A DNA stretch of 64,000 nucleotides from Deltaproteobacteria bacterium (lineage in GTDB: Bacteria; Myxococcota_A; Polyangia; HGW-17; SLPX01), in NCBI GenBank assembly GCA_021162935.1, contig JAGGXR010000152.1:1-64000 (forward strand), read 5' to 3'. This document shows, one piece after another, positions 31,838 through 36,124 of the stretch. Within the stretch, counting starts at the first letter, position 1, and every line of letters begins with the position of its first letter. Both the position numbers and the translations under genes were made by a program. A model generated the notes under the pieces. It did no database searches, was not told where the DNA came from, and saw only the letters and a list, made by a program, of their open reading frames with translations.

Positions 31838-32044
31838 GATTTCGTCACTCCTTTCCATGAAGCCCGATGGGCCAACAACGACCGAACCGTCATCCAAACG
31901 ACGCCGGACCCACCTCTCCAGATATAGACCAGCACCTGTCGTTGGGCAAAAAAGCCACGAGAGCCGTGACCATCCCCAGGGAAAGAAACCTCCTAACGGT
32001 CGCCGCAGCAGCACATGGCCGCCCCACGGCTCCGCATCCCCTTT

Positions 32045-32650
32045 TCAGGTCGACTCGTCCCGGAGCCCCTGATCGACGATGTCCAGAAGATTCCAGTAAT
32101 TGGTCACGAAATGGGCGACCATCGCCCCGAGCACCGTTCCCGTCCCGAGCGTGATACTGGCCAGGCCCAGTCCCACGATGAACGCAAACAAGGGCCAAAA
32201 AGCCAAGCCACGGCCCATGGGGACGTGGAGCAGCGCAAACACGGTCGTGGACCACCAGATCCCGAGGATGGGCAGCAACGCCCCCCGAAAGAGCAACTCC
32301 TCTGCGACAGCCGAGCTGATCGCCACCAGGAACACATCGCTCCGACTCAAGCCGGACAGCACGTCACCGAAAGCATCCCGCATGGCCCGCAGCGCAGACC
32401 AGTACTTGGTTCCCAAACGCGTCAACCACACGATCGCGCCACCAAAGAGCAATCCACCGAACAAGGAGAGGCCTGCGCAGACCGCTCCGCCGAGGCCCGC
32501 ACAAGGCGACGCCGCCCGATCGGGCAACCACAGGCCCCAGCCTCCGCCATGCCAATGAGCCAGCCCGACCCCGGCAGCCGCCAGCAAAACGTAGAAGGCC
32601 ACCATGATCCCTACGGACCAGGTTTTCGTGTCTTCGTGCGATTGGCTCAT
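32045..32650 (-). CDS. CPBP family intramembrane metalloprotease
   Basis: A 201-residue multi-pass membrane protein. The family motifs are present: AVAEELLFRGALLPILG (Glu-Glu...Arg), FALLHVPMGRG (His) and VAHFVTNYW (His plus Asn). CPBP (CAAX, Abi) proteases cut prenylated or other membrane peptides; in bacteria some give bacteriocin self-immunity, but no bacteriocin gene is adjacent. Start ATG 32650 with GTG 32653 as alternative; the ribosome site is weak. The tRNA-Leu terminator separates it from the tRNA. Confidence 0.85.
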   Translation of the reverse strand: MSQSHEDTKTWSVGIMVAFYVLLAAAGVGLAHWHGGGWGLWLPDRAASPCAGLGGAVCAGLSLFGGLLFGGAIVWLTRLGTKYWSALRAMRDAFGDVLSGLSRSDVFLVAISSAVAEELLFRGALLPILGIWWSTTVFALLHVPMGRGLAFWPLFAFIVGLGLASITLGTGTVLGAMVAHFVTNYWNLLDIVDQGLRDEST

Positions 32651-32802
32651 CACCCACTAAGCTCGACATTTTCCGATGAAACAGCGGCTGACCTCGAGCG
32701 AGCATGCCCTGTAACAATCTTGGCTGCTTTGTCGGACATCAGCAAACACCACCCCCCAAATCCCTCGTCCGACAAGATCAATCCATTGAGAATACAAGGC
32801 AA

Positions 32803-32832
32803 GAAAATAAAAACAAAATCCTGGACAGGATC
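32803..32832 (-). terminator. Rho-independent terminator after tRNA-Leu
   Basis: On the minus strand ATCCT-GTCC-AGGAT (complement of 32818-32831) forms a hairpin followed by TTTTGTTTTTATTTT (complement of 32803-32817). It lies about 30 bp beyond the tRNA 3' end. Confidence 0.6.
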
Positions 32833-32859
32833 AGAAGAGCGGACAGTCGAATCATCTCG

Positions 32860-32944
<85 letters not shown>

Positions 32945-32992
32945 TGTACGCCTTTTTGAAGCGTACGGGCGTCTGTGCGTTTCGTGAGTGGG

Positions 32993-33424: not shown

Positions 33425-36124
33425 ATGAGCAGGGAGCAGGAAATCCAGAAACGTCGGACCCGCGCAGAGGCGGGCCAAATCCAACTACGCCGTCTCGACG
33501 AGAGTCGACGCGACCTGCCGACCAGATTCGAGGTCACGGGACGCTACGGGCGCAGCTATCAAGTAACGATCAGGAGCGCGAACCCGGCACTGAACCACTG
33601 CACCTGTCCGGATTTCGAAACGAATGGGCTGGGGACCTGCAAGCATATGGAAGCTGCCTTAGCGCAGCTCAAGTCAAGCATCGCAACGATCGACGAGCCT
33701 TCGAATCTGCCAACGATGGTCTACCTGGATGCCACCAAGGTGCCCATGCAGCTACGCATCCTGGCAATGGACCCGACCAACGAACAGCAGAAATTTATCC
33801 ACAAACACTTCGACTCGGACAGTCAGGCCGCCAAGCAAGACATGGTGAATGCCCCGGCCATGGACGAAGCAGAGAGCCTGGGCATCATGGTCCCTGATGA
33901 GGTCCGCCGGTTCGTGGAGACACAAACCGCCAGGGCCCAGGCCCTCTCCCGATACGCTGCCCTGGCGGGCAAGGTGTCCGGGGTCAAAAATATCTCCGAC
34001 ATCCAACGAGTGGGTACAACCTTTCTCTTGGAACATGGCAGAGCCCTGCTGGCCGACCAACTGGGGCTTGGCAGATCCCTGCAGGCTGCTGTTGCGGCGG
34101 ACATCGCAGTCAAAGCGCGAGTGGCAACCAAAGTCCTGGTGGTCTGCCCTGAATCCAGGCGCCGCCACTGGCGTCGCCTCCTGGTCCGCACGAGTGGACA
34201 GCGCGTCTTCCTCCTGATGGGCCCTTCTCTTTCGGTTTCAGCCCAATCCTGCGCTTCTTGGCCCTTTGCCATCATCAGTTACAAAGACGTCCCAACGGCC
34301 AAGCAGTTCGTCCGGGACTACAACCCGGATATCGTCATCCTGGACGAGGTGCATCGACTGAGGCATTGGCAAAAATCCACAGGCACCATCATCAAAGAAT
34401 TGCCCGCCCCGGCTGTATTCGCCGTGGGCGCTCCCGTCTTGTTGGAACGACCTGAACAGCTTTCCTATCTCGTGCAACATCTGAACACGAATCTTCTGGG
34501 CCCAGCCTGGCAGTTTGATGAAAAATACGTGCAGCGCAACAAGCACGGTATGGTCATAGGTTTCAAAGACCAACCAGCCGTCCTCAAAGTAGTCGAACCC
34601 GTCACGCTCGCGCGCACGCTTCCTCCCAAGAAAACGCATAACGTACTGTTGGCCGTGGATCCGACCACGCAACAAAAGAAACTCATGGCCATGCCGGCCG
34701 TGGGCCTCCTCGCCAAGCTCAAGGTGGCCGAACGACGGTGGACCCAGGTGGACCGGGCCGAAGCCGTGGCGCTCATTTCCCGCCTGCGCAAGATCAGTAA
34801 TTTGGCCGGAACGGGGATGGCCCCTGCGCGGTCCCCGAAAGTTGCAGAGCTGAACACCATCTTGAGGGAAATCTCCAGGGAACGAGACCAAACGAAGGTC
34901 GTGGTCACCACGCGCTTTCGAGACACCGCCACCGTCCTCGCCGAACACCTGACGGAATTAGGCTGGCCCTCCCTTGCGCTTGCAACGTCTTCGGATCTGA
35001 ACGACGCAAAAACTCGCATCGAGTCCCTGCACAAGGCAGCCTCCCTGTCCGTGGTGGTCACATGCGACGACCTGTCGGGCAAACTCCCATCCATCGCATG
35101 CGACGTCCTGGTTCATTTCGACGTGGCATGGTCCCCGACCACCATGGCGGCCAGACGCAGCATCTGCGCCACGAGGCCCAGCCTTCAGATCGAACTGATC
35201 CTCGCAGAAAGCCCCGAGGAGCCCGTACGACTCGCCCTCGTGAAACACGCGGAGCTTCTTTCCGAAATCATTTCAGACCCGGTCACCGAACTCGAAGGAC
35301 TTCCGTCTTTGGACCCGAGCGGCCTCGACCGCGTCGTCGAGGCCTGTGTCGACCAAGCGGTCCTCAAGGCCCTCTGTCCGGCGCAGGCCGTTCAGCAACA
35401 AATCACGAAAACACAGCCCAGCGACATCAAGCACCACGCGGCACACCGGCCGATTCGAAAATCAGGCGCCCGGGCCGCCATAGCTGCAGACACTGGCAGG
35501 AGGGCTGTATCCTCGGGAGGCCTGGGTGATGTCTTGGTGGTCGCCTCCGCCCTACGAGAGCACCTCGAAGAGGACAACCCTAGCCAAAAACCGGCTCTTG
35601 CCCTCGCCGTCACCTACAGCTTCAAGAACGACACCTTCACCGGATGGAAACGCGAATATGTGAACCATCTGATTCGGCAGGTCACATCCTCGGCCCTGGT
35701 GGTGAGTTGGTCACCCGTTGCTCGGGAATTTCGGGTCCTGTCCACCTACACTGGCCTCAATCTCACCAAAATTCCGACCATCGGCATCCTGGACGAAGTC
35801 GCCGACAAGGTCGGCCTCAAGATTCCGCCCGAGTTACTCGCTACGGGAACGCTCGAACGGCGGCGCATGTTCTCCGACGAAGCAGGTGTCCAATTCTGGA
35901 AGAACGGGCGTCTCGAAGAACTCGCTCAGCTCGTCTACGAAGAAGCTCGGCTCATCCGCGACCTGTTCGTCGTGGCCATCACCGAGGGAAAACTCTACTA
36001 TCCGGCAGGCCCCACTGGAAAAACCACCCCCGTGGACCTCGATTTGATGGAACGGCTGCCGGCCGGCCTTGCCGCCAACATCCATAAGCGCTACCGCAGC
36101 AGCGGCACCCAGACCGTCCCATGA
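33425..36124 (+). CDS. SWIM zinc finger-SNF2-like ATPase-RNase H-like exonuclease fusion, apparently catalytically eroded
   Basis: An 899-residue protein. A SWIM zinc finger occupies residues 35-80 with Cys59-x-Cys61...Cys72-x-His74. Residues about 195-620 follow the SNF2 helicase plan: ALLADQLGLGRS (209-218) replaces the usual GLGKT, so the ATP-contacting Lys is Arg217; Walker B LDEVH (306-310) is intact; FAVGAPV stands for motif III. The second RecA lobe has KVVVTTRFRD, VVVTCDDLSGKLPSIACDVLVHFD and AWSPTTMAARRSICATRPS, where the family's Gln and two Arg of motif VI are absent. Residues about 700-860 resemble YprB-like RNase H exonucleases (LALAVTYSF, VVSWSPVAREFRVLSTY, WKNGRLEELAQLVYEEARLIRDLF) but lack the acidic metal ligands. 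It lies alone, between tRNA-Leu and a convergent kinase. Confidence 0.75.
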   Translation: MSREQEIQKRRTRAEAGQIQLRRLDESRRDLPTRFEVTGRYGRSYQVTIRSANPALNHCTCPDFETNGLGTCKHMEAALAQLKSSIATIDEPSNLPTMVYLDATKVPMQLRILAMDPTNEQQKFIHKHFDSDSQAAKQDMVNAPAMDEAESLGIMVPDEVRRFVETQTARAQALSRYAALAGKVSGVKNISDIQRVGTTFLLEHGRALLADQLGLGRSLQAAVAADIAVKARVATKVLVVCPESRRRHWRRLLVRTSGQRVFLLMGPSLSVSAQSCASWPFAIISYKDVPTAKQFVRDYNPDIVILDEVHRLRHWQKSTGTIIKELPAPAVFAVGAPVLLERPEQLSYLVQHLNTNLLGPAWQFDEKYVQRNKHGMVIGFKDQPAVLKVVEPVTLARTLPPKKTHNVLLAVDPTTQQKKLMAMPAVGLLAKLKVAERRWTQVDRAEAVALISRLRKISNLAGTGMAPARSPKVAELNTILREISRERDQTKVVVTTRFRDTATVLAEHLTELGWPSLALATSSDLNDAKTRIESLHKAASLSVVVTCDDLSGKLPSIACDVLVHFDVAWSPTTMAARRSICATRPSLQIELILAESPEEPVRLALVKHAELLSEIISDPVTELEGLPSLDPSGLDRVVEACVDQAVLKALCPAQAVQQQITKTQPSDIKHHAAHRPIRKSGARAAIAADTGRRAVSSGGLGDVLVVASALREHLEEDNPSQKPALALAVTYSFKNDTFTGWKREYVNHLIRQVTSSALVVSWSPVAREFRVLSTYTGLNLTKIPTIGILDEVADKVGLKIPPELLATGTLERRRMFSDEAGVQFWKNGRLEELAQLVYEEARLIRDLFVVAITEGKLYYPAGPTGKTTPVDLDLMERLPAGLAANIHKRYRSSGTQTVP

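Follow-up and report, generated by a model that had tools for sequence, protein, structure and literature searches.

The open reading frame at positions 33425-36124 (+) of the window, the 64,000-nucleotide stretch of a Deltaproteobacteria bacterium contig that was analysed, raises the question of what a helicase-nuclease fusion could do when the active sites of both its halves appear to be destroyed. The frame begins with ATG, has no internal stops and encodes an 899-residue protein, which a preliminary description of the locus had read as a SWIM zinc finger, an SNF2-like ATPase and a YprB-like RNase H exonuclease, in that order; profiles, profile-profile comparison and AlphaFold/Foldseek all support these domains. 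The chance of an 899-codon frame staying open in random sequence of the same composition is about 1e-12, the codon-position GC of the gene (0.64/0.45/0.71) resembles that of the adjoining genes, and none of the 13 genomes available for the order, which span eight genera and four families, lacks the gene. The best explanation appears to be that the fusion protein is a double pseudoenzyme which has been maintained by vertical descent throughout the order, probably as a DNA-recognition or scaffold factor without catalysis, a reading which as a whole we hold with moderate confidence; that catalysis has been lost twice in a functional gene is very likely.

All features of the protein lie on the + strand. 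The SWIM finger (residues 35-82, positions 33527-33670) follows the CxCx(n)CxH pattern with all four ligands present, as C59-x-C61-x10-C72-x-H74, and matches PF04434 with 21.6 bits in one scan (cut-off 19.6) and with 16.4 bits, under the cut-off, in another. The two-lobe core (residues 195-620, positions 34007-35284) is a member of the SNF2 (SF2) family by descent, as seen in both sequence and fold: it matches SNF2-rel_dom (PF00176) of Pfam with E=7e-9 and 35.6 bits versus a cut-off of 24.9, it retrieves the Sulfolobus SNF2 protein 1z63 in a search of solved structures, with GLGRS aligned to GLGKT, and its predicted model matches ISW1 and 1z63 in Foldseek with a probability of 1.00. A linker (35285-35521), partly of low confidence in the model, then leads to the RNase H domain (35522-36100); its net charge is +8 to +16 in the order and just +2 in the window protein, whose RNase H part is close to neutral. 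The predicted models have pLDDT values of 83 and 85, while the relative placement of the domains is unreliable since the full AlphaFold model has a pTM of 0.53. An identity of the protein as the DISARM protein DrmD or as DpdE finds no support, the scores being 33.6 versus 610 bits and 31 versus 500 bits, respectively, when set against the NCBIfam equivalog cut-offs.

The state of the motor was evaluated in an alignment of 32 sequences, comprising the 11 full-length members from the order and 21 homologs from the class. The latter (e.g. L008, L010 and L021), which are the nearest full SNF2 homologs, likewise carry an N-terminal SWIM finger followed by the SNF2 core, but differ in having all motifs intact and in ending with other C-terminal regions, which lack this RNase H domain; the Walker A Lys, Walker B DE, motif III [TS]GTP, motif V GLNLQ and motif VI Q-R-x-x-R are invariant in 21/21. 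In contrast, each of the 11 full-length members of the order has broken motifs III, V and VI. The window protein has GAPV at the [TS]GTP positions of motif III (34427-34438; it can also be read as VGAP versus TGTP), DDLSGKLPSI at the position of DAGGVGLNLQ in motif V (35066-35095) and AWSPTTMAARRSICATRPS for PWNPAVLEQRIGRxHRxGQ in motif VI (35126-35182). The absence of the Gln and of both Arg fingers from motif VI had been noted in the preliminary description, neither an R-x-x-R pair nor, in any other register, an intact motif being present; the destruction of motifs III and V adds to the active sites listed there. A search of the window protein for other registers in which motifs I, III, V, VI or those of the exonuclease would be intact showed that there are none. 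Some traces are left in two relatives, as G002 and G005 retain GLDLA/GLDLS in motif V and one motif VI arginine. The Walker B and SWIM residues remain, as initially described: the Asp307-Glu308 pair (34343-34348) and the four SWIM ligands are invariant both in the 11 full-length members and in the 21 class homologs.

The Walker A motif is a more particular case. It reads QLGLGRS in the window protein (34058-34078), with Arg in place of Lys217, and the residue is as originally read, from codon AGA at 34073-34075; it is, however, not a conserved loss but private to this genome, as the Lys is kept in 10/11 full-length members, and the change, a single transition from the Lys codon AAA, depends on one base in one assembly. 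The residue after the Lys, Thr or Ser in the motif, is Arg in eight members of the order, and the Walker A glycines are gone from G002 and G005 (ELDK). Among motifs I, II, III, V and VI, which are all intact in an active SNF2 ATPase, the window protein has kept motif II (Walker B) alone, and judging from the motifs ATP hydrolysis is probably absent from it. Nucleotide binding may have been retained in most relatives, because there the Walker A Lys and Walker B survive. The same genome also encodes a separate SNF2 protein (L002, G000:C49:79507-81481) with the canonical motifs DDMGLGKT, DEAQ, TGTP, GLNL and QATDRAFRIGQ, in which the intact-motif SNF2 part is followed by a SWIM match in another frame.

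The C-terminal domain had to be reached through relatives, because direct searches of Pfam (including PF13482) and of PDB sequences with the window protein alone gave no match for it. A profile built from four members of the order matched some 36 proteins from a different class of the phylum with E-values of 1e-24 to 1e-32, and the four of these that were scanned all carry MZB and WHD_HRQ1 domains (MrfA/Hrq1-like) together with RNase_H_2 (PF13482), with DEAD and Helicase_C in addition in three of them and a shorter frame in the fourth. Stronger evidence comes from the opposite direction: a profile built solely from MrfA-fused RNase H domains that are intact matches the window at 35597-36004 (approximately residues 725-860) with E=1e-22, and among 290 genomes of the class it finds this order's gene only, in G000, G001, G002 and G005. 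In profile-profile comparison with hhalign the probability is 99.8% for the near members and 94.9% for those of f3/f4, which are more divergent. In Foldseek, the model of the domain (pLDDT 85) is matched at a probability of 1.00 to structures of family B DNA polymerases, enzymes that contain a DEDD exonuclease domain; the profile of intact domains has a weak match only, to a DNA polymerase I, among PDB sequences. The domain is thus by homology and DEDD fold a YprB/MrfB-like RNase H (PF13482) by descent, closest to that of the intact MrfA-RNase H fusions in the other class, and the structure prediction and profile searches that had been proposed as checks support both the SNF2 and the RNase H fold, the latter without a direct Pfam match.

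In Bacillus, MrfA and MrfB are separate proteins. Fused forms of MrfA-MrfB type have been mentioned (PMC12458937), and they resemble the window protein in carrying the exonuclease fold at the C-terminus of an SF2 helicase, although that helicase is of the MrfA/Hrq1-like DEAD type with MZB, not SWIM-SNF2, and the D-E-D-D residues with Tyr or His are intact. Such proteins of approximately 1000-1085 residues, with an MrfA/Hrq1-like helicase (DEAD, WHD_HRQ1, MZB) and an intact RNase_H_2 in one chain, occur in the other class of the same phylum (L088-L107). Separate PF13482 frames of 247-297 residues that score over the cut-off are present in G001, G002 and G005 (L120, L121 and L122) and absent from the window's genome.

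The catalytic columns of the domain (D, E, D, the PTFD Asp, Y and D) read D-E-D-D-Y-D in 20/20 intact MrfA-type fusions and A-A-E-G-L-E in the window protein, where the changes are Asp to Ala707, Glu to Ala709, Asp to Glu768, the PTFD Asp to Gly787, Tyr to Leu836 and Asp to Glu840. The earlier claim that all of the acidic ligands are missing therefore stands as far as the site is incomplete (A707, A709, G787), whereas two of the ligands have changed from Asp to Glu (E768, E840). The Asp, Glu, Asp, Asp and Tyr or His of an active DEDD exonuclease are not assembled in the window protein, and we infer from these residues that its nuclease activity is absent. The site is incomplete in 10/10 members of the order that were tabulated, the Tyr being Leu or Val in all ten, although the exact residues lost vary among them. 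The survey of homologs thus largely bears out the conserved loss that had been anticipated, as motifs III, V and VI and a complete exonuclease site are lost order-wide, while the Walker A Lys is kept and the exact nuclease losses vary.

The proteins of the order form one clade with a support of 100/100 in a tree built without the alignment columns for motifs I, III, V and VI, and in the same tree the proteins of G002 and G005 are grouped with that of the window (96/91), although the branches are long and the branching order inside the clade is consequently uncertain. Full-length relatives are 18-31% identical to the window protein, and two of the 13 genomes (G001 and G010) carry only a fragment at a contig end. 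Next after the members of the order come the class-level SWIM-SNF2 proteins. With the window protein as a single query the genome collection yielded one distant locus only, and a plasmid search yielded generic DEAD/DEAH helicases only. No intact version of the order's fusion was found in 290 genomes of the class; class and phylum were represented by a sample of largely fragmented assemblies, and an intact SWIM-SNF2-RNase H ancestor may exist elsewhere. The literature searched contained no paper on SWIM-SNF2-RNase H fusions, nor one on such a fusion with both sites dead and conserved in an order. By descent, both halves fall into known families, and the doubly dead, order-conserved fusion can be classed as a pseudohelicase/pseudonuclease.

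Selection on the gene was assessed by the Nei-Gojobori method among sister genes within the order. The dN/dS ratios lie between 0.09 and 0.23 (0.011/0.125, 0.038/0.334, 0.035/0.335 and 0.208/0.888 by pair), as low as had been predicted for a functional pseudoenzyme, and the constraint on the linker and RNase H part is as strong as elsewhere in the protein. These values, which include the nuclease domain, argue against general decay in the clade, and such purifying selection with retention in 13/13 genomes despite loss of the active sites is what characterises a functional pseudoenzyme. For the window gene itself, which has no near relative, the corresponding argument rests on the intact frame at high divergence; together with the sister-gene ratios, the open full-length frame upholds the original view that this is not a decaying pseudogene.

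It is nevertheless conceivable that the family works in the relatives while the window's gene is an early pseudogene, with Arg217, Gly787 and other private changes as signs of decay. The long terminal branch of the window protein (1.31), the most damaged residue set of any member and the lack of a close relative for dN/dS would fit such a lineage-specific decay, which we regard as quite improbable given a frame that is full-length at this divergence with a codon-position GC like that of its neighbors, the clade-wide loss of motifs III, V and VI, and the C-terminal domain of the family mate G001, which is 40-42% identical and likewise open. Similarly improbable is residual or re-modelled catalysis, in which divergent residues such as Glu768 and Glu840 would rebuild a working nuclease or ATPase site. 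The Asp-to-Glu changes at two ligand columns and the intact Walker B could be taken in its favor, but Ala stands in place of both the first Asp and the Glu, Gly in place of the PTFD Asp and Leu in place of the Tyr, and no alternative motif register exists. In MrfB, moreover, the single mutants D107A, D172A and D262A are inactive on dsDNA, and on ssDNA D107A, E109A and H258A are strongly impaired and D262A retains some activity (PMC11194089).

More consideration is due to the idea, though still an unlikely one, that the order's SNF2 part is an ATP-binding switch, which would bind ATP without productive hydrolysis and so toggle DNA or partner binding, the window's lineage having lost the Lys as well. 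The kept Lys and Asp-Glu pair in most or all full-length members suit this model; the Arg that follows the Lys in eight members, the ELDK sequence of G002 and G005 and Arg217 of the window protein do not. Least likely of all appears to be a component of anti-phage defence comparable to the SNF2 helicases of DISARM or Dpd or to the inactivated RNase H domains of TALON. The best weak NCBIfam matches are indeed to DrmD and DpdE, although with scores far under the curated cut-offs, and the YprA helicases of TALON are likewise SF2 helicases with a C-terminal inactivated RNase H-fold domain (PMC12458937), a likeness in domain make-up, although YprA is not SWIM-SNF2 and TALON is encoded in defence operons. 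The gene described here, in contrast, occurs in all genomes of the order and at housekeeping loci, and none of the neighbors typed is a defence gene.

These neighborhoods look like housekeeping contexts and not like mobile or defence islands. In the window the gene stands alone, with a tRNA-Leu on one side and an opposite-strand Ser/Thr kinase with a PEGA domain on the other; the tRNA (anticodon gag, 32859-32943, -) lies about 480 bases upstream, and an ORF at 32015-32959 (+) that runs through it is probably spurious. After the C-terminal fragment in G001 come genes for a protein of metallo-beta-lactamase fold, an FHA protein and a kinase that shares 52% identity with the one in the window. 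In all eight f4 genomes the gene adjoins that of a protein of 271-313 residues (L037:6706-7593, L039:3236-4090, L040:8353-9177, L042:4741-5682, L043:4027-4842, L044:3961-4851 and L041:1924-2751), without Pfam or NCBIfam match where scanned, which is a possible functional partner, and in several of them this conserved gene is accompanied by a DUF503-rbfA-nrnA-truB-rpsO-pnp cluster. A UvrA-like gene adjoins in G006, G007 and G012 (L039:7533-9827, L040:2609-4936 and L042:1-1632), its product being 764-775 residues long where complete, shorter than the UvrA models of 924-943 positions. An operon partner common to the whole order was sought and not found, as the neighbors differ between families.

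For the double pseudoenzyme, the following course of events can be proposed. A DEDD exonuclease domain of MrfB/YprB type would have been joined to the C-terminus of a SWIM-SNF2 protein, and the catalytic sites of the two would later have been lost, an order of fusion and loss that we infer, with the folds and the zinc finger kept throughout. The two RecA-like lobes, the SWIM finger and the linker, basic in most members, could then form a DNA-binding platform, as their folds suggest, while the dead RNase H fold might recognise a DNA end, junction or lesion and/or dock a partner. The protein would thereby contribute to the repair or replication of chromosomal DNA as a recognition or scaffold subunit without catalysis of its own, in analogy to RecC or the PriA of Deinococcus; the choice of repair is guided by the genomic context, which is weak, and by the relationship to MrfB.

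The RecC protein of RecBCD is SF1/RecB-like and its dead nuclease fold is of the PD-(D/E)xK type, unlike the window protein; the comparison is one of analogy and no homology is claimed. It is similar in being a DNA-repair protein derived from a helicase, whose inactivated helicase domains serve Chi recognition (PMC9836394). PriA of Deinococcus-Thermus has the same Walker A Lys-to-Arg change; in E. coli PriA the K230R substitution abolishes the ATPase and helicase activities, and the D. radiodurans protein still binds DNA and is a pseudohelicase clade-wide, as is the order's fusion (PMC4504706), although it belongs to the PriA family and has no SWIM finger or nuclease domain. Because of these precedents a recognition or scaffold role is the most likely function, even if its assignment stays tentative, at somewhat less than an even chance. 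More speculative, although possible, is that the protein is an independently evolved and previously undescribed RecC-like DNA-recognition factor, built from a dead SNF2 motor fused to a dead DEDD exonuclease, which steers an active machine of repair or replication.

Annotation calls for caution here, since on the PF00176 match alone the protein would pass for an active SNF2 helicase. Both halves have intact homologs, in sister orders and in another class, which makes it possible to reconstruct the sequence of losses and to test directly what the SNF2 and DEDD folds do without catalysis. The loss of both motor and nuclease catalysis in one order-wide fusion would amount to a natural experiment in the conversion of a helicase-nuclease into a recognition or scaffold protein.
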